A stretch of DNA of 64,000 bases, from positions 62,001 to 126,000 of the forward strand of contig JANQOQ010000006.1 in NCBI GenBank assembly GCA_028285755.1, given 5' to 3'. This stretch comes from Puniceicoccaceae bacterium (GTDB taxonomy: Bacteria > Verrucomicrobiota > Verrucomicrobiia > Opitutales > JAFGAQ01). The position numbers were made by a program, and so were the translations under genes. The notes beneath the pieces were generated by a model. It had not been told where the DNA came from and did no database searches. It worked only from the letters and a program-made list of their open reading frames with translations. Shown piece after piece: positions 2-55,079 of this stretch (positions within the stretch are counted from its first letter, which is position 1; each line of letters begins with the position of its first letter).

Positions 2-3004
<3,003 letters not shown>

Positions 3005-15966: not shown

Positions 15967-17009
15967 ACAAACGAAAATTAAGTATGCCTAAAACAGAGTT
16001 AGCAAAAATAAAGGATGAGGCCTCAAGATGGGTCATACTCAATGAAAAAGGATTAACTCCAAAACAGGAGCGCGAATTCAGTGAGTGGCTAAAGCTTAAT
16101 CCGAAACATGGCGAACATTATGCACGTCACAAATCTTACTGGAGCGACATGGATCGGCTTGCCGGGCTGCAACTGTATTTTAAGAAAAACGTGGACCCGG
16201 ATTTACTGGAAGATGAAGTCTTGCCTCATACAAAAAAGCGCAGAATCAAACCCTTGATCACAGCGATAGCGGGACTGGCCGCCTGCCTGCTCATTGTTTT
16301 CTCAATTTCATACTTTCGCCTGGATCGTTCACTGGTTGAACCAACCTTGGCAGACGAATTTAAAATAGAGCGAATCCAAAAGCTTGAGCTGGAAGATGAC
16401 TCTACCGTTTTCCTGAACCGCTCCGCATCCATCGTAACCCGATACAGTAGTAAGGAGCGGTTGGTAATACTAAACTCTGGTGAGGCCCACTTTGAAGTTA
16501 CCAAAGATTTCAAACGCCCTTTTATAGTAGATGTACAGGGCGTGAAAATCCGGGCGGTCGGAACCGCATTTAATGTCCACTATGATTATAACAAAGTGGA
16601 TGTTTTCGTGACTGAGGGAACGATCGCGGTACAGTCTCCAAAAACAAAAACCAACCAAGCTACCAAGGAATCAATCGTTGAGATCAACCAGCAGGTCATT
16701 GTATCGCTCGATCACAAAAAGCCGAAGCTTGAAGTAAATACGCTACAGGAAAAGCAAATTGAGGATATGCTGCTCTGGAAACCCCAGTTGATTGATTTCC
16801 AGAATACCCCCTTGGTTCAAATCATTGATGAATTTAATCGTCGCAACGATATTCAAATCATAATCCAGGATCCGGATATCGGTGATATCCGGATCAGTAG
16901 CGTGTTTTGGTCGGATAATTTAGGCGGGTTTGTGAGGTTATTGGAAGCACGCTTTGGAATAGTTGCCAGAAACCGGGATAACCAGGTAATCACTCTAAGC
17001 CGTTCTTAA
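15963..17009 (+). CDS. FecR-family anti-sigma/signal transducer
   Basis: Single-pass inner-membrane regulator of 348 residues. The cytoplasmic N-terminus (about 15-65, with ASRWVILNEKGLT and the EWLKLNPKHGEHY segment) binds the sigma factor. One membrane helix lies around residues 97-115. The periplasmic FecR domain covers about 130-240, with conserved VTEGTIAVQS and G-T-A-F-N-V. The C-terminal domain (about 270-345, starting F-Q-N-T-P-L) is an STN-like module of the DUF4974 type. It overlaps the sigma gene by 4 bases (ATGA) and is followed after 19 bases by the STN lipoprotein gene. It should hold the sigma factor until the TBDT reports ligand. Confidence 0.93.
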   Translation: MNKRKLSMPKTELAKIKDEASRWVILNEKGLTPKQEREFSEWLKLNPKHGEHYARHKSYWSDMDRLAGLQLYFKKNVDPDLLEDEVLPHTKKRRIKPLITAIAGLAACLLIVFSISYFRLDRSLVEPTLADEFKIERIQKLELEDDSTVFLNRSASIVTRYSSKERLVILNSGEAHFEVTKDFKRPFIVDVQGVKIRAVGTAFNVHYDYNKVDVFVTEGTIAVQSPKTKTNQATKESIVEINQQVIVSLDHKKPKLEVNTLQEKQIEDMLLWKPQLIDFQNTPLVQIIDEFNRRNDIQIIIQDPDIGDIRISSVFWSDNLGGFVRLLEARFGIVARNRDNQVITLSRS

Positions 17010-17428: not shown

Positions 17429-20400
17429 ATGCAACCCCTCATTAAACAGAAACTTAAAACCTTACGTGAGACAATCGAAAGATTCAGGCAGAAAAGCAGC
17501 CTGAGTTTACTCCTTAGTTTCATTGTGCTCTCTTCATGGGCGAAGAGTTTGGATTTTGATATACCCGCGGGTCAGGCATCTGAGACATTGAGGCTCTTTG
17601 CAATGCAAAGCAACCAAAGCCTGATTTACACAATCGAGGATGTGAGCGGTGTGAATACACACCCATTGCACGAAAAAATGGAGCCAAGCGAGGCTCTCAA
17701 ACTAATGCTCAAGCACACCTCGCTTAGCTTTATTCAAGATGATTCAGGTGCATACGCAATTTTAAGGAAGGATGAATGTGAAACAGCACCTTCCAGGAAT
17801 CCCGAGAGCGCCAACTCAGAGGACTCCGCAAACGTAAACCCAAAACAACTAGGAAATAGTAAAATGAAAGATAATGAAACGAATCGCAAGACTCTAATGT
17901 CTCGCCTTGGACAGGCGTTTGGAGTCTTTTTATCTGCAGGCGTGGCGACCACTTCGTTGGCCCAGGATAGTATCACGGATGATGAGGGCGTCTATGAATT
18001 GTCTCCCTTTGTGATCAGTGAAGAGGAAAATGTGGGATATCTCGCAACCTCAACCCTTGCGGGAACCCGTCTGAATACCCCTCTAAGAGACGTAGGAGCC
18101 TCCATTTCGATTATGACTTCGGAGTTTTTTAACGATGTCGGTGCGACTGACTCTACTACCTTATTGTCCTACGCGCTGAATACGGAGACGTCCGGAGCCT
18201 ACGGTAATTTTGCCGGTGGTAATGATGCAGTGCAGGGAGGTGAGCGGGTGGACTTATCCGACTCACGAACCAATCCTCAAAGAGGGCAGCGGGTGAGAGG
18301 GCTGGCATCAGCGGATCTTACCCGTAATTACTTTGAGACAGATATCGCGTTTGACGCTTATAATACGGAGCGTGTAACGATCAATCGTGGACCGAATTCA
18401 CTCCTGTTCGGGATTGGCAGTCCCGGAGGCATTATCAATAACTCTACGATGCAGGCTTCGGTCTCCAAGAATTTTGGTGAATTCAGCATCCGCCTGGGTG
18501 AACGTTCCAGCCACCGTGAAACGCTAAACTACAATCGTGTGATTATTGAAGACCGTTTGGCAGTAAGGGTTGCGGGTTTGAACGAGAATTTCAATCATCA
18601 GCAAAGACCTACATACGAGGATAAGGAGCGTTTTTACGCTGCAGTGGAAGCGGTTTTGTTTGAAAACGAAAACAGCGACATACTCGACCGTACAGTCTTT
18701 CGTGCTAACTTCGAAACCGGCAGCTCAAGGAGTAATCCCCCGCAAATCACTCCTCCCGGTGACGGTATTTCAGCATGGTTCGACTTGCCAAGTGCTACCA
18801 AGGTTGCAGAGTTGGAAGCGATCACGGGCTCCACTTTCCCGGGGTTTTTTACAGATGGCTCGTTTCAGCCGAAGGCAACTTACGACCAGCGTAATCCGGG
18901 AACTGCACGCTCTGATTATAATAACGTAGTTGATATCCCCAACTTTATCCAAATCTCACTGATATACGAACAACTTGGCGGAAGTAGTGCTCCCGGCTTG
19001 ACGGGCTCTGACCTTGAAGCAAGTGTTATGCGTTCCCAATATAATCGTAATGGAGATTTCCCGGGACGTTTGGTGTGGGACTACTTTGTGGCCAGTTCGC
19101 TATTTAGTGCTGACTATGCGCCGGGCTTTGTTACCAAGTCGTTACCCAATTCTGTATTTGACAACGAAAAGATGGCACTGCATGGGAACACCAATTTGGT
19201 AACCCGTGACTTTGATGCCCAGAACTATACGCTGGAGCAGACTTTCTTCGGCGGTAAGGCGGGGGTAGAGCTTTCTTACGATAAGCAGAGTTACTCCACT
19301 TTCCGTCGTTTCCCATTCAACGCAGGCGGGTTCGCGATCGCGTTTAATGATATTCTGGTAGATATTCAGGAGTATCGCAATGATGACACTCCGAACCCCA
19401 ATGTGGGGCGTCTGATGGCGGTAAGCTCTCAGAGCGCATTACAAAGCATCCTCGGGGGGCAGTACGAAGATATTGAGCGTGATGCGACCCGCTTAACCGC
19501 ATTCTATGATTTGGATTTCCGTGATAATGACAAACTCAGTTGGCTGGGGCGACACATCATTACCGGAGTGATTAGTGAACAAAGCCGTGACATTACGAAG
19601 CGGGACGAAGGTGCGGCCTGGGAATCGGATGCTCTTGATATCGGAGGCCGTAACTTCCACTTTCATGATATCGACGGTAGCCGTCGTCAGGTGGTCTCGC
19701 AGGTTTATCTCTCAGATCCATTGCACAACAATTCATCGATCAATTCGATTAACGATCTGAAGATCAGTCAGTATGTAAACATTGATCTACCTCAAAACGG
19801 ACAGACCTACAATGTTGCAGTCTACGACCGCTTTAATGGAGGATTTCAGCATATTCCGGCAAGGACAGTTACCTACGACCGCACCTTCGAGCGTACCAAG
19901 CGCGAGGTTAAAACCCGTGTGATCAGTTTACAGAGCTATTTGCTGAATGATCACATTGTAGGGTTGGTCGGTTTTAGAACCGACGAACAAACCACCTTTC
20001 AGAATATTCCCAATGTGGAAAACGATGACGGTTCAATCAATATTCCATCATCCAATCAGTTGGATCGTTCGCGGGATGCTTTGACCGGCGAAGTGTTGGA
20101 TCCTGAAGAAGGGGACACCCTCACCTGGAGTATTGTTGCTCACGCTCCGGATAGTTGGACAGAGAAGTTCTGGGGAGCGCCGCGCTTAAGCCTCCACTAT
20201 AATGACTCTGAAAACTTCAATCCAGTAGGTGCCCGTACCGATATTGACGGCTCCAGCATTTCATCACCAGCCGGCAAGACTGAGGAGTATGGTTTCTCTG
20301 TTTCGTTATTAGAAAATCGATTCACCGCACGGGTTAACTGGTTTGAAACCACCATCTCCAATGACTCTGCGTCGATCAATCCGGATACCATTCATGGACG

Positions 20401-21319
20401 GATCGGCAACTGGCTGAGTCGGTGGCAGGAAGGTATCAACGACGAACAAACGATCCAGTGGATGCTTGCTCAAACGCCGGGGAATCCAGAGCCCAATCTT
20501 TGGAATTCCTATGAAGAAGCATTTAACGCATTCATCAACCTGCTACCTGCACGTACTCAATCCCTTTACAATTATCGTGTAGAGCCCCTAAATACAATTG
20601 GAGCAGATATTGAGGATAATAAGGATCTGTTCCCGAACTCTGCAGCAACCCGAGACTTCGTATCCAAAGGTTTTGAAGTGGATCTAATTGCCAATCCCAC
20701 ACGCAATTGGCGGGTCATGGTAAATATTGGCAAACAGGAGACCGTTCAGAGTAACATCGCACCGAGGACTGCAGCGGTTGCGGCTGAGATCGACGCGAAT
20801 TTGCGTGCATCCCGCTTTATCGACCTGCGTGATGCGCCAACATTGGGTGAAGCGTCTACCTTCCGTTCCCGCTGGGCAGGCACCTATGGCAACTTGCTGG
20901 CAGAGCTTGCGCAGGAAGGCACGGCTTCTCTGGAACAACGCGAGTGGCGTATCAATGCAGTCTCCTCGTATGACTTCACCGAAGGACGCTTGGCAGGTTT
21001 CGGTGTGGGAGGTGCGATACGCTGGCAAAGCGAAATCGCAACCGGATACCCACTGGAAGATCCCGACAATGATGGAATTAACACCCCTGATTTGACCCGT
21101 CCCTTCTTCGGGGATCCTGAGCTAAACGGTGATATCTGGCTGAGTTATAAGCGCAAAATATATGATGGTAAAATCGATTGGAAGATCCAGTTGAATGTGC
21201 GCAACCTCATCGGGGGTGATGACACTATTCCCGTAATTACCAATCCTGATGGCGAGCTAGCCGTATTCCGTAATCCACTCCCACAGGAACTGTTCTTAAC
21301 CAATACATTCTCCTTTTAG
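17429..21319 (+). CDS. TonB-dependent receptor with N-terminal STN signalling domain
   Basis: 1296-residue outer-membrane receptor. Residues 1-45 are a long signal peptide. STN domain about 46-115 (LDFDIPAGQASETLRLFAM). A low-complexity linker follows (115-145), then a second, signal-peptide-like segment (about 146-181, ending T-T-S-L-A-Q). A TonB-box-like YELSPFVI comes next, then the plug (to about 320; NRGPNSLLFGIGSPGGIIN) and a 22-strand barrel ending in phenylalanine (NTFSF). It imports a large ligand using TonB energy and, through the STN domain, should signal to the upstream FecR/sigma pair. The following GH5 and sulfatase genes point to an oligosaccharide ligand. The internal segment with its own Met146 and AGGA raises the possibility of a shorter product without STN. 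Confidence 0.93.
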   Translation: MQPLIKQKLKTLRETIERFRQKSSLSLLLSFIVLSSWAKSLDFDIPAGQASETLRLFAMQSNQSLIYTIEDVSGVNTHPLHEKMEPSEALKLMLKHTSLSFIQDDSGAYAILRKDECETAPSRNPESANSEDSANVNPKQLGNSKMKDNETNRKTLMSRLGQAFGVFLSAGVATTSLAQDSITDDEGVYELSPFVISEEENVGYLATSTLAGTRLNTPLRDVGASISIMTSEFFNDVGATDSTTLLSYALNTETSGAYGNFAGGNDAVQGGERVDLSDSRTNPQRGQRVRGLASADLTRNYFETDIAFDAYNTERVTINRGPNSLLFGIGSPGGIINNSTMQASVSKNFGEFSIRLGERSSHRETLNYNRVIIEDRLAVRVAGLNENFNHQQRPTYEDKERFYAAVEAVLFENENSDILDRTVFRANFETGSSRSNPPQITPPGDGISAWFDLPSATKVAELEAITGSTFPGFFTDGSFQPKATYDQRNPGTARSDYNNVVDIPNFIQISLIYEQLGGSSAPGLTGSDLEASVMRSQYNRNGDFPGRLVWDYFVASSLFSADYAPGFVTKSLPNSVFDNEKMALHGNTNLVTRDFDAQNYTLEQTFFGGKAGVELSYDKQSYSTFRRFPFNAGGFAIAFNDILVDIQEYRNDDTPNPNVGRLMAVSSQSALQSILGGQYEDIERDATRLTAFYDLDFRDNDKLSWLGRHIITGVISEQSRDITKRDEGAAWESDALDIGGRNFHFHDIDGSRRQVVSQVYLSDPLHNNSSINSINDLKISQYVNIDLPQNGQTYNVAVYDRFNGGFQHIPARTVTYDRTFERTKREVKTRVISLQSYLLNDHIVGLVGFRTDEQTTFQNIPNVENDDGSINIPSSNQLDRSRDALTGEVLDPEEGDTLTWSIVAHAPDSWTEKFWGAPRLSLHYNDSENFNPVGARTDIDGSSISSPAGKTEEYGFSVSLLENRFTARVNWFETTISNDSASINPDTIHGRIGNWLSRWQEGINDEQTIQWMLAQTPGNPEPNLWNSYEEAFNAFINLLPARTQSLYNYRVEPLNTIGADIEDNKDLFPNSAATRDFVSKGFEVDLIANPTRNWRVMVNIGKQETVQSNIAPRTAAVAAEIDANLRASRFIDLRDAPTLGEASTFRSRWAGTYGNLLAELAQEGTASLEQREWRINAVSSYDFTEGRLAGFGVGGAIRWQSEIATGYPLEDPDNDGINTPDLTRPFFGDPELNGDIWLSYKRKIYDGKIDWKIQLNVRNLIGGDDTIPVITNPDGELAVFRNPLPQELFLTNTFSF
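17851..17866 (+). other. Possible internal translation start inside the STN-TBDT gene
   Basis: AGGA at 17851-17854 lies 9 bases before an in-frame ATG at 17864-17866 (codon 146). The protein from that ATG begins with a charged stretch, a hydrophobic core and an A-Q cleavage-like end, which reads as a complete second signal peptide directly before the TonB-box region. Starting here would give a receptor without the STN domain. Alternatively it is a remnant of an STN cassette fused onto an older receptor gene. Confidence 0.4.
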
Positions 21320-21350
21320 TAGATCGATATAATATTATACTACACGTATT

Positions 21351-21410
21351 AGTTGGTCAGAGCCTGAACTTCATGGGATAGGTGAAAGTGCTCTGGCCAA
21401 CTATTCCTTT
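21351..21410 (+). terminator. Probable transcription terminator after the STN-TBDT gene
   Basis: A 13-base stem (21351-21363 with 21390-21402; AGTTGGTCAGAGC against GCTCTGGCCAACT, one G-U pair) with a 26-base loop is followed by ATTCCTTTTC. It lies 31 bases after the receptor stop. The U-tract is imperfect and the loop is long, so termination may be partial, allowing some read-through into GH5. Confidence 0.6.
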
Positions 21411-21473
21411 TCAAAAAATTCGGGCAGCTACTGAAAACGCTGCCTGTAAAATCAATAAATTAAATCAAAACCA

Positions 21474-22613
21474 ATGACTAATCTCACAAAAATCTCTGCG
21501 TTTATATTCCTATCCTTCATAATTTTGGTAACACTGCTTCAGGCAGAAGATAAATCCAAGTATGGCCGCTGGACTGAGGAACGTGCAAATCAATGGTATG
21601 CGGATACCGGATGGATCGTCGGGTGCAATTTTTTGCCAAGCACTGCAATCAACCAACTGGAAATGTTCATGGAAGAAACTTATGATCCCGAAACGATCGA
21701 TCGTGAACTGGGGTGGGCCGCTTCGCTTGGGTTTAACACGATTCGTGTCTACCTGCACGATCTTTTCTGGGTGCATGACCGTGAGGGATTTCTGGAGCGG
21801 CTCGATCATTTCCTCGACATTTGCGATAACCATAACTTAAAGCCCATGCTCGTGATTTTTGATGGAGTGTGGCATCCATTCCCCAAATGGGGTAAACAAC
21901 CGGAACCGATTCCTCATCTGCACAATTCCGGGTGGGTACAAAGTCCGGGAGTTGAAATCTTGAGCGATCCCTCCAAATACGACTCACTGAAAGGTTATGT
22001 GCAGGGTTTGATGAAGCATTTTAAGGACGATGAACGCGTGCTTGCCTGGGACCTTTTTAATGAGCCGGAAAACCGAAACATCCCGACTTACCGACGACAT
22101 GAACCCCTGAATAAGCACGATCTGGCTATGGAATTACTGGATAAAACCTTCAAATGGGCCCGGGAAGTCGATCCTTCGCAGCCACTGACTGCAGGCATTT
22201 GGCGTGATTATGAGGGCTTGGTGGAGAACTCAGAAATTTTTCAGCTCATGCTAAATGAATCTGATATTATTACTTTTCATAATTACCTGAATTTGGAGAA
22301 TGTTAAGAAGCATGTTACCATGATGAAGCGCCTCTTCAACCGCCCCATTATTTGCACGGAGTATATGGCACGAGGCACCGGTAATAAATTTGATCCTATA
22401 TTGGGGTATTTTAAGGAAAACAATATTGGTGCCTATAATTGGGGACTAGTGAATGGTAAAAGTCAGACTATTTATCCCTGGGAATCGTGGGAGAAAGTCT
22501 TCAGAGATGAGCCTTTCGAGTGGCATCATGACATATTCCGCAAAAACGGAGATCCCTATCGTGAAGCTGAAGTGAAGTATATCCGCAAACTAACCGGCAA
22601 ACACACAAAATAG
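21474..22613 (+). CDS. Secreted GH5-like glycoside hydrolase
   Basis: 379 residues with a signal peptide (about 1-24) and one TIM barrel. N-F-L-P-S-T-A-I-N near 52-60 and G-F-N-T-I-R-V-Y near 86-93 mark the start of a GH5/clan GH-A barrel. The acid/base is E197 in LFNEPEN and the nucleophile E296 in ICTEYMAR, the standard retaining pair. Such enzymes cut beta-linked glucans, mannans, xylans or galactans, and the subfamily cannot be set here. It lies downstream of the STN-TBDT terminator and 5 bases before a sulfatase gene, so the two are probably co-transcribed and act on the same substrate. Confidence 0.87.
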   Translation: MTNLTKISAFIFLSFIILVTLLQAEDKSKYGRWTEERANQWYADTGWIVGCNFLPSTAINQLEMFMEETYDPETIDRELGWAASLGFNTIRVYLHDLFWVHDREGFLERLDHFLDICDNHNLKPMLVIFDGVWHPFPKWGKQPEPIPHLHNSGWVQSPGVEILSDPSKYDSLKGYVQGLMKHFKDDERVLAWDLFNEPENRNIPTYRRHEPLNKHDLAMELLDKTFKWAREVDPSQPLTAGIWRDYEGLVENSEIFQLMLNESDIITFHNYLNLENVKKHVTMMKRLFNRPIICTEYMARGTGNKFDPILGYFKENNIGAYNWGLVNGKSQTIYPWESWEKVFRDEPFEWHHDIFRKNGDPYREAEVKYIRKLTGKHTK

Positions 22614-22618
22614 TTATT

Positions 22619-24229
22619 ATGAGCACGAAACGAATACTCTTCATCGCCAGCGCCTGGCTTCTGCTGATTCTTTTCTCAACAGCAGATACCCCGCCTGAAA
22701 GACCGAATATCGTCATCATAATGGTCGATGACATGGGCTGGTCAGATATTGGCTGCTATGGTGGCGAGATTCCCACGCCTCATATCGACAGTCTTGCGGA
22801 GGGGGGTATTCGTTTCACTCAATTCTACAACACATCCCGCTGTTGCCCCACGCGCGCTTCTCTTCTGACCGGCCTCTACCAGCATCAGACAGGTATTGGC
22901 CACATGACTACGGAAGGGCGGGCGGATTTTGACTTTGGAGTCGACGGTTTTCGTGGCCGTATGAACCTTAATTGCGTGACACTCGCCGAAGTTCTCAAGA
23001 CCGTAGGCTACAGCACCTGTATTACCGGCAAGTGGCACCTGGGCAGTGAACGCCCCTATGATCGCCCACTACAAAGGGGGTTTGATCAATTCTACGGAAG
23101 CCTTTCAGGCGCATTTAGTTTCTTCAAGCCGCATGGTGAGCGGGGCCTAATGCTTGGGAACCAGAGGCTTGAAGAGCCCGATCCCGAGGCTTATTACGCT
23201 ACAGATGCATTCAGCGATTATGCAGTGGACTTCGTTAATAAACAGAGTGGGGAAGCGCCGTTCTTTTTGTATGTGGCCTATAACGCACCTCACTGGCCTC
23301 TTCACGCCAAAGAAGAGGATATTGAGAAATTTGTCGGCAAATTCACTGAAGGCTGGGACGTTCTCAGACGCAAACGATTCGAACGACAGGTAGCGATGGG
23401 CATATTCGACGAAGATTTCGATATTGCTCCCCGAGATTCAAACGTGCGCCCCTGGAGTGAGGTAGATGCCCAACAAAAGAAGGACTCGGACTATCGGATG
23501 GCTGTTTATGCGGCACAGATGTATTCTGTAGATTATGGTGTCGGAAAGATTATGGATGCCATCCGGGATAATGGTGAGCTCGATAATACGCTGATTATAT
23601 TCTTGTCCGACAATGGGGCATGTGCCGAGCCTTACAATGAGTTTGGGGGCGGCGAAATGTCCGATATCAACGACCCCGATAACGGGGGAATCGTTTCCTA
23701 TGGACGCGGCTGGGCCAACCTGTCGAACACCCCTTTTCGGGAATATAAAAACCGACCCCAGGAGGGAGGTATCGCTACACCGATGATCGCGCATTGGCCG
23801 GATGGGATCAATTCCGATTTGGAGGGGGCTTTTGTGCGGGATGTTGCTCACATTATCGACTTTATGCCAACTGTTTTGGAGATCAGCGGTGCGGAGTATC
23901 CGAGAATTTATCGGAATGAGCTCATCCATCCTTATGAGGGTGAAAGTCTGACTCCGTTTTTCACGGATGGTGAGCGCGAGGCTCCTGAGTTTTACTTCTT
24001 TGAGCACTCTCAGAACTGTGCGGTGAGAATGGGAGATTGGAAGATTATTGGTCGCTATGCTGAATGGAATTGGGAGCTCTATAATATTGTAGATGATCGC
24101 AACGAGCTAAACAATCTTGCATCAAAACATCCTGAGATTGTGGATGAGATGGCACAGGCCTGGGAGCGCTGGGCGTTGCGTGTAAATGCAGCCCCACGAG
24201 GAGTCAGAACTCCCAATAGCTACGATTAG
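22619..24229 (+). CDS. Secreted type I sulfatase (arylsulfatase-like, C-C-P-T-R)
   Basis: 536-residue sulfatase with a signal peptide (1-22), I-M-V-D-D-M-G-W metal site, maturation site C75-C-P-T-R, GKWHLG lysine/histidine, the NAPHWP histidine and the SDNGA pair. The insertion after the active site and the G-G-E-I-P-T-P-H start resemble the Pseudomonas arylsulfatase-like subfamily. It should remove a sulfate from an oligo- or monosaccharide in the periplasm or outside; it needs FGE for formylglycine. It sits 5 bases after the GH5 gene and converges with the AraC regulator (4-base gap). Confidence 0.94.
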   Translation: MSTKRILFIASAWLLLILFSTADTPPERPNIVIIMVDDMGWSDIGCYGGEIPTPHIDSLAEGGIRFTQFYNTSRCCPTRASLLTGLYQHQTGIGHMTTEGRADFDFGVDGFRGRMNLNCVTLAEVLKTVGYSTCITGKWHLGSERPYDRPLQRGFDQFYGSLSGAFSFFKPHGERGLMLGNQRLEEPDPEAYYATDAFSDYAVDFVNKQSGEAPFFLYVAYNAPHWPLHAKEEDIEKFVGKFTEGWDVLRRKRFERQVAMGIFDEDFDIAPRDSNVRPWSEVDAQQKKDSDYRMAVYAAQMYSVDYGVGKIMDAIRDNGELDNTLIIFLSDNGACAEPYNEFGGGEMSDINDPDNGGIVSYGRGWANLSNTPFREYKNRPQEGGIATPMIAHWPDGINSDLEGAFVRDVAHIIDFMPTVLEISGAEYPRIYRNELIHPYEGESLTPFFTDGEREAPEFYFFEHSQNCAVRMGDWKIIGRYAEWNWELYNIVDDRNELNNLASKHPEIVDEMAQAWERWALRVNAAPRGVRTPNSYD

Positions 24230-24233
24230 TCAT

Positions 24234-25091
24234 TTAGCCGGGTCGCCTATACTTCTGCTTGCGGTAGAGGCTGGGGCTGGTCGCCTTTATTCGCTTAAAT
24301 TGCTTATTGAAATTGGATAAGTTCTTAAAGCCGCATGAAAGCGCGATGTCCAATATGGTGCGATCCGACTCTAACAGCGATTGTGAAGCTTGATGAATGC
24401 GATGCTGGATGAGGAACTCTTGAAAGGTTATACCAATATGCGTCTTAAAAAATCTGCTTACAGAATGAGGGTGTAAATTAGCAATTTTCGCAATTTCATC
24501 TCTCGTTATATCCCTATCCCAGTTTTGCTCCAGGTAATTAATCGTTTTTTTAGCTCTCTCAATACTGGGAAAACTAAAGCTTTGCTGGTAAGCAAGGCTT
24601 GTAACCGGCTTGCGGTCTTCACTGCTATGTAAGAGCCAAAGGAGTTCGATGAGTAGGGTTATCTTGCGCCATGGTTCCTGAACAACAAATATTTGACTCA
24701 TAACCGACGATACTGCCTTGAGAGTCTGTTCACCAAATTGAATACCCCTTTTAGCTGAAATGAAGAGATCATTCATCCAGAAAAATTCAGGCTTTACTAA
24801 AAGATCTTTGCCAAACACATCCGGTAGAAATTGGACGACCTTGGATACTGCCCGGGTTTTACCCAAGTTCATGTATTGATGAGGCACATTCGAACCAATC
24901 AGGGCAAGATTACCCGGTTCAAATGACTCTATGGAATCGCCAATGATCCTTTGGCCACTGCTTTTTACGATCCATGTGATTTCTATTTCGGGATGATAGT
25001 GATAGGGGTTATCAAATTCTTCCATGTCAAGATCCAGGCATGAAATGGAACTTCCCTCTTCGGGTTTGATGATCTCTCGCGAAATACTCAT
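24234..25091 (-). CDS. AraC-family transcriptional regulator
   Basis: 285 residues: an N-terminal cupin sensor (about 1-130, with HYHPEIEI and the N-V-P-H-Q-Y motif) and a C-terminal double helix-turn-helix (about 180-283; DITRDEIAKIANLHPHSVSR and the second helix around F-K-N-L-S-N-F-N-K-Q-F-K). It is divergently transcribed from the ferredoxin/P450/ADH/esterase genes across 140 bases and is the obvious candidate regulator of that module, probably sensing a sugar or methylated sugar. It ends next to the convergent sulfatase gene. Confidence 0.95.
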   Translation of the reverse strand: MSISREIIKPEEGSSISCLDLDMEEFDNPYHYHPEIEITWIVKSSGQRIIGDSIESFEPGNLALIGSNVPHQYMNLGKTRAVSKVVQFLPDVFGKDLLVKPEFFWMNDLFISAKRGIQFGEQTLKAVSSVMSQIFVVQEPWRKITLLIELLWLLHSSEDRKPVTSLAYQQSFSFPSIERAKKTINYLEQNWDRDITRDEIAKIANLHPHSVSRFFKTHIGITFQEFLIQHRIHQASQSLLESDRTILDIALSCGFKNLSNFNKQFKRIKATSPSLYRKQKYRRPG

Positions 25092-25231: not shown

Positions 25232-25543
25232 ATGGCAAAAATTGCATTTATAACCCCAGACGGCGAATCGGTAGTCGTAAATAATGCTGAAGGCAACCTG
25301 ATGGAAATCGCCACTTACAATGAGGTGGAAGGCATTGACGCATCCTGTGGAGGGGTGTGCTCATGCGGGACCTGTCATGTGAGAGTAAATCCGAACTGGA
25401 TAGATCGTCTCGGTGATAAAACGGAAGCCGAGATTGATATGCTGGATTTTCAGCCCGGCGCGGATGAGCGAAGCCGCTTATGTTGCCAGATTGAAATTGG
25501 TTCAAACCACGATGGCCTCATACTGGAAGTAGACCCACTGTAA
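25232..25543 (+). CDS. [2Fe-2S] ferredoxin, putidaredoxin/adrenodoxin type
   Basis: 103-residue electron carrier. Cluster ligands are C39, C45 and C48 in SCGGVCSCGTCH plus C85 (or C84) in RLCCQI, the spacing of vertebrate-type/putidaredoxin ferredoxins that serve bacterial P450s. An extra cysteine (C43) lies inside the first loop. It is followed 19 bases later by the P450 gene, so it is almost certainly the redox partner. No ferredoxin reductase gene is present nearby, so electrons must come from a reductase encoded elsewhere. Confidence 0.95.
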   Translation: MAKIAFITPDGESVVVNNAEGNLMEIATYNEVEGIDASCGGVCSCGTCHVRVNPNWIDRLGDKTEAEIDMLDFQPGADERSRLCCQIEIGSNHDGLILEVDPL

Positions 25544-25562
25544 ATCAAAAAATTACATTATT

Positions 25563-26717
25563 ATGTCTGGATGCCCCTATGACCCGTTTAAAGAGCACCG
25601 CAAGAAAGGTGTGCTAAATGCAAAGCTTGATGGGGATGAAATTCCCATGATTTTGCGACACAAGGATCTCAAACTCAGAGCTAAAGATTGGGAGACATAT
25701 AGCTCAGATGCCCCATTTCGCGTGCCAATACCTGCAGAGGAGGATGTTCGTACGGTTCGCCAATTACCCCTAGAGGTAGATCCGCCCGAACACACTGAAT
25801 ATCGGGCAATCGCTGAACCGTTTTTTCGTAAACCGCTGCAAGCTGATTTTATTCAGAAGATTGAAAACCTGATCGAAGAACTGCTGTATGCCATAGGAAA
25901 CAACGAAGCGATTGAGATCGTGAGCCAGTTTTCGCTGCCTTTACAATCCAGAGCGTTAACCTACTTGCTGGGAGTTCCCGAATCCGAAGCGGATGAACTT
26001 ATCAGTTGGGGAACCCATGTTTTTAGAACAGGAGATGGTAAACAAAAAGGCGCGCAGATGGAAGCTTACATAAACGCCTGGCTCGATAAAGCCGAAGAGA
26101 ATCCGGGAGATGATTTTTATTCGGCGCTCACACAGGCTCAATATCGCGGGCGTCATTTAACGCGTGAAGAGATGGCAGGCTATTGTAATATCATGTTTGC
26201 AGGGGGGCGGGATACAGTCATTAACTCCGTTTCGTTTATTATGGGTTATTTTGCCCAGCACCCCGATAGACTTGATCAGGTTCGAGAAAATCCTTCGTTC
26301 ATTAAAACAGCAACGGAAGAATTTGTGCGCTATGTATCACCCGTAACGCATATTGGCAGAGTCTGTCCTGTGGAAACCGAAGTGCATGGGCATAAAGTGA
26401 AGGAAGGTCAAAGGATAACGCTCGGTTTCGCATCTGCAAATCATGATGAAACAGTCTTTGATTCCCCTGAGGAAGTGAGAATCGACAGGAAACCCAATCC
26501 CCACGTTGGTTTTGGCTTTGGTATTCACAACTGTTTGGGGGCTCATCATGCGCGCCTTATCATGAGAACGCTCATTAAAAAGTTATGCGAGCGCGTGGAG
26601 ACTCTCGAATGGGTGGATGCGAAGGAAAACCTTGAAGTGGAAGAAGATTACACCCGGACAGTCTCTTACGAGTCCCTCACACTTAAAGTGCAAACGAAGT
26701 CATTAGATGCCCATTAA
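25563..26717 (+). CDS. Cytochrome P450, candidate methyl-sugar O-demethylase
   Basis: 384-residue soluble bacterial P450. Seen: heme-ligand loop F317-G-F-G-I-H-N-C324-L-G, the E-x-x-R pair (E253, R256) and an I-helix A-G-G-R-D-T (213-218) with the acid-threonine pair. The short N-terminus MSGCPYDPF has no membrane anchor. Known: CYP236A P450s with a ferredoxin and reductase remove the methyl group of 6-O-methyl-D-galactose in porphyran-degrading marine Bacteroidetes, releasing formaldehyde. Inferred: same kind of reaction here, because the gene lies between its ferredoxin and a zinc ADH plus esterase able to handle formaldehyde, within a sulfatase/GH island. The ADH start overlaps its end by 11 bases. 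The CYP subfamily was assigned by resemblance of the N-terminus and context only. Confidence 0.85.
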   Translation: MSGCPYDPFKEHRKKGVLNAKLDGDEIPMILRHKDLKLRAKDWETYSSDAPFRVPIPAEEDVRTVRQLPLEVDPPEHTEYRAIAEPFFRKPLQADFIQKIENLIEELLYAIGNNEAIEIVSQFSLPLQSRALTYLLGVPESEADELISWGTHVFRTGDGKQKGAQMEAYINAWLDKAEENPGDDFYSALTQAQYRGRHLTREEMAGYCNIMFAGGRDTVINSVSFIMGYFAQHPDRLDQVRENPSFIKTATEEFVRYVSPVTHIGRVCPVETEVHGHKVKEGQRITLGFASANHDETVFDSPEEVRIDRKPNPHVGFGFGIHNCLGAHHARLIMRTLIKKLCERVETLEWVDAKENLEVEEDYTRTVSYESLTLKVQTKSLDAH

Positions 26718-27819
26718 AAGCAAATCGGCGATTACCGATGCGAACGGTTCATTGATTATAGATGAAGTCGAGATATATGAACCTCTGGCAGGCGAAGTGC
26801 TGGTGCGAATTATGGCATCGGGAATATGCCATACTGATTACGATTCACTCTCCTGGGGAAAACGTATAATCATGGGCCACGAAGGCTCGGGTATTGTTGA
26901 GCAGGTGGGTGATGGCGTCCAAAACGTAAGGGTGGGCGATCGGGTGATCCTGAATTGGGCAATCCCCTGTAATGAGTGTTTTCAATGCATGCATGGTAAC
27001 CACAATATATGCGAGAATAACAACCAGGTGACGGAGCGGATTCCCGGTTACGGCTCGGCTCATTCAGGAGCCTCAACATATAAGGGTACTCCGATAGGCA
27101 GATCTTTCAATATCGGAACTCTAAGCAATTATACGGTGGTTAAAAAGGAAGCGGTGGTACGTATTCCGGATGATGTACCCTTTGCGTCTGCATGTATTGT
27201 GGGTTGTGGGGTTATGACAGGGTATGGCTCTGTGGTGAATTGCGCGAAAGTGGAAGCAGGTAGCTCAGTCGCCGTCATCGGAACAGGTGGTGTAGGGCTG
27301 AATGTCATACAGGGTGCACGAATATCCGGTGCTGCAAAAATCATTGCTGTGGATATCAGTAAAAACCGGCTTAACCTCGCGAAAAAATTTGGAGCCACCC
27401 ATGCTGTTTTGGTCTCCAAAAAGGATGCGGGTTTAAACCAGGCATCTGAGCAAATCAAGGCGCTCTGCGCAAGAAGGGGCACTGATTACGCGTTTGAATG
27501 TACGGGCATACCGGCGTTAGGTGCAGCCCCATTGGCCATGATTCGCAATGGAGGTATGGCAGTACAGGTATCGGGGATCGAGCAAACAATCGAAATTGAT
27601 ATGAATCTTTTTGAATGGGACAAACTATACCTCAATCCCCTTTATGGCGGTGCTAATCCGGAATACGATTTTCCCAAATTGATCGAGCTGTATAAGCTGG
27701 GTGCCCTGAAGCTGGATGAGCTGGTTACCCAAACCTATAGCCTGGATGACCTGAATGTTGCAATCGAGGATATGCTTAATGGCAAGAATGCGAAGGGCGT
27801 TATCCTAATGGAGCATTAA
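26707..27819 (+). CDS. Zinc-dependent alcohol dehydrogenase (class III / formaldehyde-dehydrogenase-like)
   Basis: 370-residue medium-chain dehydrogenase. Catalytic-zinc cysteine in SGICHTD, G-H-E in MGHEGSG, four-cysteine structural zinc lobe (C-N-E-C-F-Q-C then C about 8 residues on), NAD-binding GTGGVGLNV. The overall pattern matches class III ADH and S-(hydroxymethyl)thiol dehydrogenases. It overlaps the P450 gene by 11 bases and precedes the esterase by 3 bases. Inferred role: oxidise the thiol adduct of formaldehyde released by the P450, or oxidise the sugar itself. The thiol (glutathione or other) is not identified. Confidence 0.9.
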   Translation: MPIKSKSAITDANGSLIIDEVEIYEPLAGEVLVRIMASGICHTDYDSLSWGKRIIMGHEGSGIVEQVGDGVQNVRVGDRVILNWAIPCNECFQCMHGNHNICENNNQVTERIPGYGSAHSGASTYKGTPIGRSFNIGTLSNYTVVKKEAVVRIPDDVPFASACIVGCGVMTGYGSVVNCAKVEAGSSVAVIGTGGVGLNVIQGARISGAAKIIAVDISKNRLNLAKKFGATHAVLVSKKDAGLNQASEQIKALCARRGTDYAFECTGIPALGAAPLAMIRNGGMAVQVSGIEQTIEIDMNLFEWDKLYLNPLYGGANPEYDFPKLIELYKLGALKLDELVTQTYSLDDLNVAIEDMLNGKNAKGVILMEH

Positions 27820-27822
27820 TCT

Positions 27823-28635
27823 ATGGACGATTCATACTTCAGAACGATTGAAACGGGCGATTTGGACCTTGGTATAGGCACATTGCAGATGATCACGGTA
27901 AAAAGCCCGTCGCTTAAGATGAGGTCTGATATCAGTCTCTACATTCCCGGTAACACACAACTCCCTGCTAATACACCCGTGGTTATCTTGTTGCATGGGG
28001 TCTACGGTTCGCATTGGGCATGGTTTCTAAATGCCAGAGCGCATGTCACTCTGCATAACTTGATCGAGTCAGGAAGAGTGCCCCCCATGATTCTTGTGGC
28101 CCCCTCCGATGGCTTATGGGGAGACGGAAGTGGTTACCTGAAGCATAAATCCAAAGACTTTGAAAAGTGGATCGTGGATGATGTACCCCGGGCAGTATCT
28201 GAAGTCACAGGCAATGCACCTGACGCTTCCCATTACATCGCCGGTTTATCGATGGGGGGATTCGGTGCACTGAGGTTAGGGGCAAAATATTGCCATCTAT
28301 TTAGGGCGTTTGCCGGGTTATCATCGATCACCGAATTTAGCCAGCTTACTCAGTTTATTGAAGAACCCCTCGGGGATTATGCACAAACTGATAATCCATC
28401 TGTCATCGAGGAGATTAAACAGCACTCTAAACAATCCCTTAAATTTCAATTTAACTGCGGTTTGGGCGACCCTCTAATTGAAAACAATAGGCGACTCCAC
28501 CATCAGCTAAACGAGCTGGGTATAGAGCATACCTACCATGAATATCAAGGTTCACATGAGTGGCCTTACTGGAGCGCGCATATTGGAGAAACCCTTCAAT
28601 TTTTCGCTGAGCATGAGAGCGTTCGGGAAAACTAA
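27823..28635 (+). CDS. Esterase-D-type alpha/beta hydrolase (S-formylthiol hydrolase-like)
   Basis: 270 residues, no signal peptide. Oxyanion segment L-L-H-G-V-Y-G, nucleophile serine in GLSMGGFG, aspartate in GDPLIENN and histidine in G-S-H-E-W-P-Y-W, the arrangement of the esterase D/antigen 85 family. In formaldehyde oxidation an enzyme of this family (S-formylglutathione hydrolase) splits S-formylglutathione to formate and thiol. Placement 3 bases after the zinc ADH gene supports that role. A sugar- or acyl-esterase role is the alternative. Confidence 0.82.
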   Translation: MDDSYFRTIETGDLDLGIGTLQMITVKSPSLKMRSDISLYIPGNTQLPANTPVVILLHGVYGSHWAWFLNARAHVTLHNLIESGRVPPMILVAPSDGLWGDGSGYLKHKSKDFEKWIVDDVPRAVSEVTGNAPDASHYIAGLSMGGFGALRLGAKYCHLFRAFAGLSSITEFSQLTQFIEEPLGDYAQTDNPSVIEEIKQHSKQSLKFQFNCGLGDPLIENNRRLHHQLNELGIEHTYHEYQGSHEWPYWSAHIGETLQFFAEHESVREN

Positions 28636-28781
28636 TTTGTTCGTTTCATACATTCTATTCCGAATGTCCTACTAATTAGATTGTTTAAAAATAGCTTCGA
28701 GAATTGGGGGGTATTGCCAGAATCAACGTCCTCGTTTTGAAGCTATTAAGGCGATCCATATCTCCACACACACTTATAAAA

Positions 28782-30215
28782 ATGCGCTTATATCTAATTA
28801 TTCTTACAATAATTTGCGGTAGTCTAACTGCGCGGCAACCCAATATCATTCTGATCTTATCTGACGACCACGGTTATGCCGATATGTCACACACCGAGTA
28901 TGATACCGGTGTTGATACTCCGCATCTGGATCGATTGGCGGCGGAAGGCATTCGTTTCACAAATGCCTATGCAACATCACCCATTTGCACCCCTTCACGC
29001 ATTGGCCTCGTCCTCGGGCAATATCAACAGCGATATGACAATTGGTGGTATAATAGCCCCGGATTACCCGAACGCGACATAGCGCCGACCATGGCCGAGA
29101 TCTTACAGGATGAGGGATATGCCACCTGCCTAATAGGTAAAATCCACTTTAATGCTAATTTTGGTCTTCATTTACGGAATCATCCACTCAACCATGGTTT
29201 TGATCGATTCTATGGCTTTAATGGCCCGGCCAAGCATTATCTGGTTCACAACAAGGAACGTCATGATGAGTTTATGGCTAAATTGAGAAAGCATGAGCCC
29301 GACCGCCATTACTTGCTCATGTTTATGGAACCCATGTGGGATGATCGCAAGCAAGTGGACGTTGAAGGATTCTCCACCGACCTCTTTCGGGACGAAACCA
29401 TTCGCTTTATTGATGATCACCGCGATGAACCATTCTTTATTATGCTCTCTTTCAATGCAGTGCACGACCAAACCCATCAATTGCCGCCAGAATACCTGAA
29501 GGAACAGGGTATTCCCATACCGGATGATTGGGACCCTGGCCTGGAAAGCTCGAGCGAGTGGATAAATCGTACCTTTTCAGAGGAGCTCAACCGTGCGTTT
29601 AGCATTGGCCATCTTTATTACATGGATGAGGCGATTGGCCGCATTATGGAACATCTTGATAATACCGGGCTGCGAGAGGATACATTGATTGTCTATACAG
29701 TGGATAACGGTGGTTCAGTCCCCACGGGAGGAATCAATACACCGCTCAGCGGGAGTAAATTCACCGTGCTCGAAGGAGGGTTACGCACGCCGTTTATCGT
29801 CTCATGGCCTGGAAGCCTCGAACAAGGCAAAATCCTGGACAATGTAGTCAGTGCGATGGATCTAATGCCCACCTTTGCCTCTTTGGCAGGTGCTGAGATA
29901 CCTGAAGATACCGATGGTCTGAATATCCTACCTCTGCTAAAAGGGGAAAATACCGATATTGGGCATGAAACCCTCTTTTGGGACATGGGACACTGGAATC
30001 AGTTTGCAGTGCGCCATGGTGACTGGAAATTACGATTCAGCGAACCCGCACCGCGACAGTATCGCTTGGGAGAAAAGCATGGCTTTTACCTGCATAATCT
30101 TAGCGAGGATATTGGCGAAAAAGTGAATTTGATTGAAGAACATCCTGAAAAAGTTTCCGAACTGAACGTTTTGCATCGTCAGTGGATCGAAGAAATACTC
30201 CGTAATTTACCTTAG
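28782..30215 (+). CDS. Secreted type I sulfatase (C-T-P-S-R)
   Basis: 477 residues from the ATG at 28782, chosen because it begins a clean signal peptide (RLYLIILTIICGSLTA). An upstream TTG at 28704 only adds 26 residues in front of it. Maturation site C69-T-P-S-R, S-D-D-H-G metal site, GK-x-H (GKIHF), NAVHDQTH histidine and VDNGG pair are all present. The G-K-W-H-x-G of other sulfatases is altered to G-K-I-H-F, which marks it as a different subfamily. It lies 146 bases after the esterase gene of the P450 module and converges with lacI. Confidence 0.92.
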   Translation: MRLYLIILTIICGSLTARQPNIILILSDDHGYADMSHTEYDTGVDTPHLDRLAAEGIRFTNAYATSPICTPSRIGLVLGQYQQRYDNWWYNSPGLPERDIAPTMAEILQDEGYATCLIGKIHFNANFGLHLRNHPLNHGFDRFYGFNGPAKHYLVHNKERHDEFMAKLRKHEPDRHYLLMFMEPMWDDRKQVDVEGFSTDLFRDETIRFIDDHRDEPFFIMLSFNAVHDQTHQLPPEYLKEQGIPIPDDWDPGLESSSEWINRTFSEELNRAFSIGHLYYMDEAIGRIMEHLDNTGLREDTLIVYTVDNGGSVPTGGINTPLSGSKFTVLEGGLRTPFIVSWPGSLEQGKILDNVVSAMDLMPTFASLAGAEIPEDTDGLNILPLLKGENTDIGHETLFWDMGHWNQFAVRHGDWKLRFSEPAPRQYRLGEKHGFYLHNLSEDIGEKVNLIEEHPEKVSELNVLHRQWIEEILRNLP

Positions 30216-34521: not shown

Positions 34522-37500
34522 TTGAAATTTTCTTACCCTATGCTTCATAATATAAGTAATCACCAAAAACTAAAGCATCTGTTAAATGAACCGTGCCAGG
34601 AGGTAGATGGAGTTGAATCCATAAAACCCTTCATTATGCATTTAACTTCTAGTAGTGATATCTGGGCTTTTATTGGGAGTAATCATTGCATCACGGCAGG
34701 TCGTAAGAACCCGGATCATGCTCTATTTCCTTACTATACTCAGGATAAACTTATCGATATGGTAGGTTCATGCGGCTCTTTGAGCGTAATCCGTTACCAG
34801 GATGAAATTTGGATCCCTTTTGAAGATTCACTGAATCCACCAACACATATCAGAAGATCTGTCATAAAGAGCATTAGCGGTACTAAGATCGCACTGTCTG
34901 AGTACAACGATCTCTTGAATTTAAAAATTGTGGTTACCTGGACTTCATCCAAACGATTTGGAATATTGCGCAATGTTCAATTGATCAACACCGGTATCAA
35001 TGTGATTCGACTGAGTCTGATCGATGGAATACAGAACATACTACCGCCATCCGTAGATGAACAATTTCAAAATCGGTTTTCAAATTTAGCCGATGCCTAC
35101 AAATATTCTGAGCGACTCGAAGATCAGTTAGCGGTTTATTCTTTAAGTTCGATACCCACGGATCGTGCCGAACCCAGTGAAAGCTTAAGTGCCACGACTG
35201 TATGGTCTGCGGGTGTATTGGTAACTAAACACTACCTGTCTAAGGACTCTATTGGGAAATTTGTATCCAATCAGCCCAGAGAATCGGATAGTGAGCTTCG
35301 GGGACGGCCGGGCTGTTACCTGATCGAATCTGAGTTGGAGATTGAGCCCGGATCTCTGCAATCCTGGTGGATCATCGCAGATGTTGATCAGTCGATCAGC
35401 GCAATTGAGAATCTACACGATTGGTTAGGAGAAGCCGATAACCCAATTCGGGAGCTGGAACAGTCTATCGATAGAAACACAACAGTATTAAATACTATGG
35501 TTTCTCAAGTAGATGGTTTTCAAAAATCGCATTCAATACGGGCCTCCTGGCGTCACTATTCCAATAGCCTGTTTAATATTATGCGGGGCGGAACTTTTCT
35601 CAAAGGCTATGAAGTGCCCACAGATGACTACAGAAAGCATGTTCAAAGGTCCAATAATGCCGTGTATAATAAAAATATCGAATGGCTTCAATCGCTGTCG
35701 TCGGGCATTTCGATCAAAGAATTAAAAGCCCTAACCCAAACAGTGGATGCCGATCTATATCGAATCACGAACGAATATCTGCCGCTCACTTTCTCTCGTC
35801 GCCATGGTGACCCAAGCCGCCCATGGAATCGCTTTAACATAGACTTAATTGATGAAGCAGGGAATCAAAGATATGCTTATCAGGGAAACTGGAGGGATAT
35901 TTTTCAGAATTGGGAGGCGTTGCTGCACAGTTATCCGCTATTTGCCAAATCAGTCATTTCGCGTTTTCTAAATGCGACAACCTGGGATGGCTATAACCCA
36001 TATCGAATCTCTCAAAATGGAATCGATTGGGAAAAGATTGAGCCTGAAGCCACCTGGTCAAACATTGGCTATTGGGGTGACCACCAGATTATCTATTTGC
36101 TGAAACTACTCGAGTTTTATCAAAAAGTAGATCCGCAGGGGATAGCTGAGGAGCTCAATCACAATGACTTCGTGTTTGCTCAGGTTCCTTATAGAATTAA
36201 GTCGATTGAGCATATTAAGCAAAATGCAGCGGACTCGATAGAATATGACGACGTTTGGTCAGCAGAAATTGATCGTGCAACAAAAGCCCTGGGGTCGGAT
36301 GGGCAACTACTGCATGACCCAAATGGCAAGATACGGTATGCCACTTTTTGCGAGAAGTTATTTATACCTTTATTAACCAAAGTTTCAAATTTCGTGCCCG
36401 GTGCAGGTATTTGGATGAATACGCAAAGACCCGAATGGAATGATGCAAATAATGCACTGGCGGGTTATGGGTGCTCAGTGGTTACCTTGGGTTATATGCT
36501 GCGGTATACACGGTTTTTGAAGCAGTTAATTGACGATTCCAGAATTGAAGCATTCTCATGGCATAAGGACTTGGTGGTTTTCATTCATTCACTTAAGAAA
36601 GCTTTGGATGCTCCTATCTCTCCTCAGGATAATTATCTAAGAGCACTTCTGCTAAATCAATTAGGCGAGGCCGGCAGTTTATATCGAAATTTGTATTATG
36701 ATAAATCTATCAGCGACCAACAAGTGACTATCGATGCCTCAACACTGTTGGAAGTGTTAAGTGGGTTTGAAAATCACATGGTGGCCACTCTGCAGGCGAA
36801 TCTCCGCGAGGATGGGCTTTATCATGCATATAATACCATAAACATTCAGGACGAGGATTCCGTCTTACTCAAGCGATTGCCTCTCATGCTAGAGGGGCAG
36901 GTTTCCATTATGTCCAGTAGCCTCTTGAGTGTTTCTGAATCCCTTAAACTAATTAAAAGTCTCAGGCAGAGCGAACTTTACCGTGAGGACCAAAAAAGTT
37001 ATCTGCTTTATCCAGATCAGGCTGCGAAAAGTGTCCTGGATAAAGGGCTGGTTATGAGAGATAACCTGAAAGATTGCCCCCAAATTTTGAAAGAAATCGA
37101 TGCAGGCAAATCTCCCTTTATCTCTAAGAGTAAAAACGGGAATTTGCGCTTCAAATCCAATTTCAGAAACCTGGAAGTATTAAAAAGCTATGCCGAGCAA
37201 CTTGATAAAGACTCTCTATATCTAAGCACGCTTTATAATACTTATGAAGAAACCTTCAACCATGCGGAATTCATAGGGAGATCCAGATCCTTTTTTGCTT
37301 ATGAAGGATTGGGCAGTATCTATTGGCATATGGTTTCGAAGCTTGTTCTGGCAGTGCAGGAAGTGGTTATAAAGAATGAAAACCAAAAATCCGCAGATTT
37401 AGATGAATTGGTTGAGCTTTTCCGTGAGCTCAAGGAGGGGCTTGGAGTGAATAAGGACCCACAAAGCTATGGGGCATTCCCTACTGACGCCTATTCTCAT

Positions 37501-37923
37501 ACTCCTGCGCATGCAGGTGCTCAACAGCCGGGCATGACCGGTCAGGTAAAGGAAGACATTATCATAAGGCTTGCAGAATTAGGGATAAGGATCACTGATG
37601 GCACCATCCAATTCAATGATACACTCCTCGATCGAAGCGAGTTGCTGGATGAAAGTGATGTATTTACATATTTTGATGAACTGGGAAACACCCGCTCCGT
37701 AGAACTGGAGCCTCATTCACTTGCATATACCTTTTGTGGGCTGCCAATAATCCTACAACATTCAGAAATTCAGGATTATCCTCAAATGTCGATTAAATTT
37801 AAGGAAAACGAAGTCACCAAAGATTTACTTTCACTTACTAAATCTGAATCAAAAGCGATATATGATCGTAATCAGGAAATTCAGAGTATAACCATAAAAT
37901 ACCCCATTAACCCCAAAGTATAA
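34522..37923 (+). CDS. Large GH94/GH149-like glycoside phosphorylase candidate (clan GH-Q)
   Basis: 1133 residues, no signal peptide, so probably cytoplasmic. Seen: an N-terminal beta-rich region (about 1-280) and a long helical part that reads as an (alpha/alpha)6 barrel. P-E-W-N-D-A-N-N-A-L at 637-646 resembles the W-N-D motif carrying the catalytic Asp of cellobiose phosphorylase (GH94); D641 is the candidate general acid. Known: GH149 enzymes of clan GH-Q are 1,3-beta-oligoglucan phosphorylases of about this size. Inferred: it splits imported beta-1,3-gluco-oligosaccharides with phosphate, because it leads an operon with a GPH sugar symporter (4-base gap) and a GH16 laminarinase-like protein. 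It could also be an unrelated large cytoplasmic hydrolase; confirm by profile search. Confidence 0.55.
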   Translation: MKFSYPMLHNISNHQKLKHLLNEPCQEVDGVESIKPFIMHLTSSSDIWAFIGSNHCITAGRKNPDHALFPYYTQDKLIDMVGSCGSLSVIRYQDEIWIPFEDSLNPPTHIRRSVIKSISGTKIALSEYNDLLNLKIVVTWTSSKRFGILRNVQLINTGINVIRLSLIDGIQNILPPSVDEQFQNRFSNLADAYKYSERLEDQLAVYSLSSIPTDRAEPSESLSATTVWSAGVLVTKHYLSKDSIGKFVSNQPRESDSELRGRPGCYLIESELEIEPGSLQSWWIIADVDQSISAIENLHDWLGEADNPIRELEQSIDRNTTVLNTMVSQVDGFQKSHSIRASWRHYSNSLFNIMRGGTFLKGYEVPTDDYRKHVQRSNNAVYNKNIEWLQSLSSGISIKELKALTQTVDADLYRITNEYLPLTFSRRHGDPSRPWNRFNIDLIDEAGNQRYAYQGNWRDIFQNWEALLHSYPLFAKSVISRFLNATTWDGYNPYRISQNGIDWEKIEPEATWSNIGYWGDHQIIYLLKLLEFYQKVDPQGIAEELNHNDFVFAQVPYRIKSIEHIKQNAADSIEYDDVWSAEIDRATKALGSDGQLLHDPNGKIRYATFCEKLFIPLLTKVSNFVPGAGIWMNTQRPEWNDANNALAGYGCSVVTLGYMLRYTRFLKQLIDDSRIEAFSWHKDLVVFIHSLKKALDAPISPQDNYLRALLLNQLGEAGSLYRNLYYDKSISDQQVTIDASTLLEVLSGFENHMVATLQANLREDGLYHAYNTINIQDEDSVLLKRLPLMLEGQVSIMSSSLLSVSESLKLIKSLRQSELYREDQKSYLLYPDQAAKSVLDKGLVMRDNLKDCPQILKEIDAGKSPFISKSKNGNLRFKSNFRNLEVLKSYAEQLDKDSLYLSTLYNTYEETFNHAEFIGRSRSFFAYEGLGSIYWHMVSKLVLAVQEVVIKNENQKSADLDELVELFRELKEGLGVNKDPQSYGAFPTDAYSHTPAHAGAQQPGMTGQVKEDIIIRLAELGIRITDGTIQFNDTLLDRSELLDESDVFTYFDELGNTRSVELEPHSLAYTFCGLPIILQHSEIQDYPQMSIKFKENEVTKDLLSLTKSESKAIYDRNQEIQSITIKYPINPKV

Positions 37924-37927
37924 TATA

Positions 37928-39316: not shown

Positions 39317-39320
39317 GTCT

Positions 39321-55069: not shown

Positions 55070-55079
55070 CTTGATCCTA

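Follow-up and report, generated by a model that had tools for sequence, protein, structure and literature searches.

What is a cytochrome P450 doing in one tight gene block with a ferredoxin, an alcohol dehydrogenase (ADH) and an esterase in a member of the Verrucomicrobiota? The block lies at positions 25232-28635 of a 64,000-nucleotide stretch (the window) from contig JANQOQ010000006.1 of a Puniceicoccaceae bacterium (assembly GCA_028285755.1), whose genome (designated G000) comprises 4.25 Mb and is 97% complete. Four open reading frames (ORFs) on the + strand follow each other closely: 19 bases lie between the first two, the second and third overlap by 11 bases, and 3 bases separate the third from the fourth. 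They encode a [2Fe-2S] ferredoxin of the putidaredoxin/adrenodoxin type (25232..25543, 103 amino acids (aa)), a CYP236-family P450 predicted to be a sugar O-demethylase (25563..26717, 384 aa), a zinc-dependent ADH orthologous to the enzymes FoADH and ZoADH (26707..27819, 370 aa) and a serine esterase of the CE1/esterase-D superfamily, predicted to be cytosolic (27823..28635, 270 aa). Every Pfam match of the block (Fer2, p450, ADH_N+ADH_zinc_N, Esterase) scores above its cut-off. An earlier interpretation of the DNA letters (the sequence-only reading) had given exactly this layout and spacing, as ORF calls and Pfam confirm, and had proposed a complete chain in which the P450 releases formaldehyde from an O-methyl sugar, a class III-like ADH oxidises its thiol adduct and an esterase-D-type hydrolase liberates formate.

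We consider it fairly probable that the block is a verrucomicrobial counterpart of the oxidative sugar O-demethylation cassette found in marine Bacteroidetes, with the ADH and the esterase as auxiliary enzymes for a product shared by different oxygenases and not for the sugar. The arrangement is not due to chance, for Rubritalea profundi, Pelagicoccus mobilis and a metagenome-assembled genome (MAG) of the Opitutales have their genes in the same order.

The P450, its family and its electron supply

The best PDB relative of the P450 is 6g5o/6g5q (E 3.4e-107; next different P450, E 4e-50), which from the entry and Robb et al. (2018) we take to be the 6-O-methyl-galactose (G6Me) demethylase of Zobellia galactanivorans (ZoCYP), presumably a CYP236A member. 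By convention, P450s sharing more than 40% identity belong to one family and those sharing more than 55% to one subfamily. With 47.2% identity to 6g5o across 369 aligned residues, the window P450 falls inside CYP236 and outside subfamily A, the Zobellia enzyme being the sole member compared. All Bacteroidetes members of the G6Me P450 family have been assigned to CYP236A (PMC9100364). The P450 motifs listed by the sequence-only reading (A213-GGRDT-218, E253/R256 and C324) are present; in an alignment of 14 family members A213, G214, G215, D217, T218, E253, R256 and C324 do not vary, and position 216 holds either R or K. Judged by these comparisons, the enzyme is very probably a sugar O-demethylase, and this part of the proposed chain is well supported.

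No second P450 was found in the window genome. Relatives at E 1e-60 or better occur in 68 of the 373 genomes of the order, and none in the four other genomes of the organism's own family. GTDB genomes hold at least 570 confirmed relatives; the best 80 come nearly all from Verrucomicrobiota, three are from planctomycete MAGs, and many are, judged by isolate names, from lake, groundwater and soil MAGs. By its sequence relatives the P450 is a member of a large, widespread verrucomicrobial family and not a stray gene. In a tree of 94 P450s it has no well supported sister group, and the ADH-linked P450s are scattered (6 changes). Recent foreign origin was considered and rejected as far as base composition is concerned, there being no signal (GC 47.2% in the block, 46.6% in the window). 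A promoter scan of the block returned fewer sites than shuffled sequences did.

The ferredoxin, with 3hui, FdVI and putidaredoxin as best PDB matches, is the predicted electron donor to the P450. No ferredoxin reductase lies within the block. In two related loci a diflavin reductase with flavodoxin, FAD and NAD domains (L048:7589-9547 and L049:10576-12360) separates a CYP236-like P450 from the ADH; it is predicted to be an alternative, unusual electron supply for the P450. The window genome encodes a diflavin protein 48% identical to this type at G000:C2:244906-246549.

An arrangement of P450, redox partners, esterase and ADH has already been described in the marine Flavobacteriia Polaribacter, Maribacter and Arenibacter (PMC10033563), a precedent that the sequence-only reading does not mention. 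In favour of the cassette, a P450 mutant of Zobellia fails on G6Me and an ADH mutant grows poorly on it (PMC10033563). With the G6Me cluster of Z. galactanivorans and Formosa agariphila (CYP236A P450, ferredoxin, ferredoxin reductase, FoADH/ZoADH, esterase) the block shares P450, ferredoxin, ADH, esterase and sulfatases. It differs in belonging to Verrucomicrobiota, in having no ferredoxin reductase of its own, in the lack of any porphyranase found in the genome and in a P450 below the 55% line.

The alcohol dehydrogenase and the esterase

The closest PDB entries to the window ADH are 8h2a (E 5e-154) and 8h2b (E 3e-149), presumably the structures of FoADH and ZoADH from Brott et al. (2023). 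It shares 63.5% identity with FoADH (8h2a) and keeps all of its zinc ligands (Cys41, His58, Cys169, Cys88/91/94/102) together with Phe136 of the narrow pocket; the same behaviour as that of FoADH/ZoADH is therefore expected. By this measure the window ADH is in the FoADH/ZoADH group of marine ADHs. Its scores against class III ADH/S-(hydroxymethyl)glutathione dehydrogenase (TIGR02818, 249.9 bits; cut-off 543.95) and S-(hydroxymethyl)mycothiol dehydrogenase (TIGR03451, 237 bits; cut-off 512.9) lie far below the curated thresholds.

The esterase reaches 21.6 bits against S-formylglutathione hydrolase/esterase D (TIGR02821; cut-off 281.7). A fold search with a model built from four sequences (predicted local distance difference test, pLDDT, 71; 38.7 from the single sequence) returned feruloyl esterases at Z 22-24 (best 23.8, 26% identity) and formylglutathione hydrolases at Z 20-21 and about 17% identity. 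The motifs GLSMGG and HEWPYW are present. According to the sequence and this model, the enzyme belongs to the CE1/esterase D superfamily and is nearest to feruloyl esterases. No signal peptide is seen by eye, and the orthologs start at the same point, at the mature domain itself; the enzyme therefore probably works in the cytosol.

How far does this pair fit the chain of the sequence-only reading, in which a class III-type ADH oxidises the S-hydroxymethyl adduct of a standard thiol and esterase D releases formate? The gene order P450-ADH-esterase suits it, as does an esterase fold superfamily that includes formylglutathione hydrolases (Z about 21), and neither a hexulose-phosphate (ribulose monophosphate, RuMP) synthase nor a class III ADH over the cut-off was found elsewhere in the window genome. 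The likeness to formaldehyde oxidation with glutathione or mycothiol (class III ADH/FrmA or MscR with FrmB/esterase D) consists in a zinc ADH gene ahead of one for a serine esterase that probably belongs to the same superfamily by fold. Against it stand the scores of both enzymes, the esterase fold, closest to feruloyl esterase, and the assays on the orthologous FoADH and ZoADH, which are inactive on formaldehyde with glutathione, mycothiol, bacillithiol, cysteine, coenzyme A and ergothioneine (PMC10033563). Built-in formaldehyde oxidation is unproven and, in this textbook form, contradicted by these assays on the orthologs; we regard that form as improbable. The complete chain is also not supported as written on the redox side: it is incomplete as first described, because there is no reductase in the block and none of the Reductase_C type was found in the genome.

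Two putative oxygenases beside the same enzyme pair

In three genomes of the order, the ADH (64% identity to that of the window) and the esterase (54-56%) occur without a block-type P450. The order in these loci (L167-L169) is a gene for a putative diiron protein, a gene for a PaaE-type reductase and then ADH-esterase. The putative diiron protein, a previously undescribed type (ferritin-like, DUF455-related, about 480 aa; L168:7063-8511, L169:11672-13120, L167:12018-13190), thus takes the place of the P450. It comprises 482 residues (partly seen in L167) and has neither a Pfam family above cut-off nor a significant PDB match. Its 18 family members share invariant E276, E308xxH311, E356 and E392xxH395, which is the ligand pattern of ferritin-like diiron proteins. 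With ferritin-like DUF455 (PF04305) it has in common a weak match in 16 of the 18 members (best E 3e-6) and six invariant ligand-type residues; it differs in its length, in remaining below the Pfam cut-off and in its PaaE/GbcB-type reductase partner in L167-L169. This reductase has NAD, FAD and [2Fe-2S] domains, like PaaE, BenC and GbcB. L-rhamnose isomerase and an FGGY-type sugar kinase adjoin the diiron loci L168 and L169. Two further genomes have the diiron-like gene beside the esterase without the ADH. At L203:9266-14120, two uroporphyrinogen-decarboxylase-like (methyltransferase-type) genes lie downstream of a diiron-like gene with a divergent AraC gene upstream, possibly another one-carbon (C1) context.

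Among 346 genomes of the order, all nine esterase orthologs and all seven ADH orthologs stand beside a block-type P450 or the diiron-like protein. The ADHs are 62-69% identical to FoADH whichever oxygenase adjoins; the P450s are 40-50% identical to ZoCYP. As the pair accompanies two unrelated putative oxygenases, it likely acts on something common to both reactions, for which formaldehyde or an adduct of it would be the obvious candidate. The repeated pairing thereby lends indirect support to a C1-handling role.

According to the proposed mechanism, a methylated, sulfated glycan would first be cleaved and lose its sulfate groups. In the cytosol the P450, supplied with electrons by the adjacent ferredoxin, would then oxidise the methoxy group of a monomeric hexose (6-O-methyl-galactose or a closely similar sugar), and the resulting hemiacetal would collapse to the free sugar and formaldehyde. 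ADH and esterase would act on formaldehyde or its adduct, the product common to all such oxygenases. They would need a thiol or carrier other than those assayed, because the known thiols failed with FoADH/ZoADH; a further carrier thiol was allowed as a possibility by Brott et al. (PMC10033563). The exact sugar, the reductase feeding the ferredoxin and the substrate of ADH and esterase are put forward as proposals only.

Several points weigh against a cassette of this kind. FoADH and ZoADH, besides failing with the six thiols, are inactive on formaldehyde without any thiol and by dismutation, and prefer aromatic aldehydes (PMC10033563). A ferredoxin reductase of the Reductase_C type was not found in the window genome, other reductase types not having been searched. 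Among 87 related P450 loci whose flanks were long enough (some loci having been fetched twice), 79 (about 90%) have neither ADH nor esterase nearby, so the demethylase does not need them alongside; a ferredoxin is adjacent in 16, the ADH in eight, and ADH and esterase together in seven. That the diiron-like protein may be a sugar demethylase is itself our inference. Finally, since the window genome has no GH86 or GH16 porphyranase (see below), G6Me from porphyran is an unlikely substrate here.

The aldehyde preference bears on a further explanation, namely that ADH and esterase act on some other intermediate, such as an aromatic or furan aldehyde or a glycan ester, and merely travel along in loci for decorated glycans. 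FoADH and ZoADH reduce furan as well as aromatic aldehydes (PMC10033563), and the esterase has its nearest counterparts among the CE1 feruloyl esterases. However, no signal peptide is visible in this esterase, which stands beside an oxygenase-type gene in nine of nine cases, and the loci carry differing carbohydrate-active enzymes (porphyranase in some, GH5 with rhamnose isomerase in others). Moreover, the Zobellia ADH mutant grows on galactose but poorly on G6Me, which as a monosaccharide has no aromatic groups (PMC10033563). We hold this explanation to be rather unlikely. A further, rather doubtful reading is that ADH-esterase is a new, oxygenase-independent C1-disposal couple for sugar O-demethylation with a thiol or carrier beyond those assayed, which would serve P450-ferredoxin, P450-diflavin reductase and diiron oxygenase with PaaE-type reductase alike; the last would then offer methyl-rhamnose and similar O-methyl sugars a second way to demethylation that needs no P450.

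Glycan context and the candidate sugar

P450, ADH and esterase are found together in R. profundi (L082), P. mobilis (L086), the Opitutales MAG (L037/L132) and the loci L046, L048 and L049, and hence the block in at least six verrucomicrobial genomes besides that of the window. In L037 it adjoins a sulfatase-GH16 fusion (GH, glycoside hydrolase) that matches porphyranase B (E 2.9e-56), and in L046 a GH86-type porphyranase. The L037 gene (L037:12212-15115) is a natural fusion of a sulfatase and a GH16 porphyranase domain. Porphyranases occur in five block-bearing relatives, within 10 kb of the block in two; GH86 porphyranase domains are present in all of G363, G361, G111, G093 and G041. No GH86 porphyranase domain was found in the window genome, in R. 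profundi or in G374 (P450 and ADH, no esterase seen), and a search for GH16 porphyranases gave no match in the window genome and was positive in four block-bearing relatives. The block is thus tied to porphyran in several relatives and uncoupled from it in the window genome, and the methylated glycan of this organism is probably not porphyran. As to the target, for which the sequence-only reading had suggested a methylated galactan or a methyl-fucose-bearing fucan, porphyran is unlikely in this genome and methyl-fucose would be a candidate.

This raises the question whether the P450 acts, by the same mechanism and compatibly with the cassette proposed above, on another methylated sugar (methyl-fucose, methyl-rhamnose or a 3-O-methyl-hexose) from a non-porphyran glycan. 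In favour of this, both the window genome and R. profundi keep the block without porphyranases, and the window P450 is just 47% identical to ZoCYP. The P450 family, moreover, is a broad one that is frequent among Verrucomicrobiota from lakes, groundwater and soil, habitats in which one would not expect porphyran from red algae. Yet polar residues of the B-C loop and the I-helix are common to the window P450, the porphyranase-associated P450s and ZoCYP, and G6Me could occur in other galactans too. We judge a different sugar to be quite conceivable, falling just short of probable. On P450 demethylation, methyl-fucose or methyl-rhamnose in Verrucomicrobiota, our literature search found nothing beyond Brott et al. 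(2023), and a paper on methyl-pentoses mentions neither P450 nor demethylation (PMC8857213).

The surroundings of the block are those of a glycan locus. An AraC-family gene (cupin and HTH_18; Pfam HTH_18/Cupin_2) lies divergently upstream at 24234..25091 on the - strand and is likely the regulator of the block; R. profundi and P. mobilis (45-46% identity), and further relatives as well, have a divergent AraC gene next to the block. Further upstream, 17429..24229 (+ strand) encodes a large receptor-like protein (of TonB-dependent type by reading), a GH-A clan glycosidase (GH5-like) and a sulfatase, which probably serve uptake and degradation within the same glycan locus. The GH5-like protein resembles the GH5s of the diiron loci only distantly, so that no shared substrate can be inferred. 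Downstream, after 68 bases, follows a sulfatase gene (28704..30215, + strand; Pfam Sulfatase), which possibly shares a transcription unit with the block. The sulfatases (22619, 28704, 43527 and 48707) and the GH2 beta-galactosidase (14-3004) claimed by the sequence-only reading are indeed in the window, the latter 22 kb away from the block.

Two pairs of extracytoplasmic function (ECF) sigma factor and FecR genes are found in the window (15427-17009 and 54032-55598); the position of the first, ahead of the receptor-like gene at 17429, suggests sigma/anti-sigma control of glycan uptake. The window also contains a laminarin-type set at 34522-40133, made up of a 1133-aa protein, an MFS transporter and a GH16 laminarinase. 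The 1133-aa protein has no Pfam family and matches the beta-1,3-oligosaccharide phosphorylase 6hq6 (E 2e-258). As they resemble a laminarin set, these genes were rejected as part of the block's substrate pathway.

The use of G6Me presents a puzzle, in that good growth needs the ADH, yet no relevant activity has been found for it. ADH-esterase beside a diiron-type protein and its reductase separates the hypothesis of a sugar-specific role from that of a common C1 product and gives concrete test loci. Moreover, the diiron-like protein is possibly a second enzyme class for O-demethylation chemistry. The P450s of sugar O-demethylation are hereby extended to many Verrucomicrobiota, freshwater and soil lineages included, and in such settings methylated sugars may slow glycan turnover.

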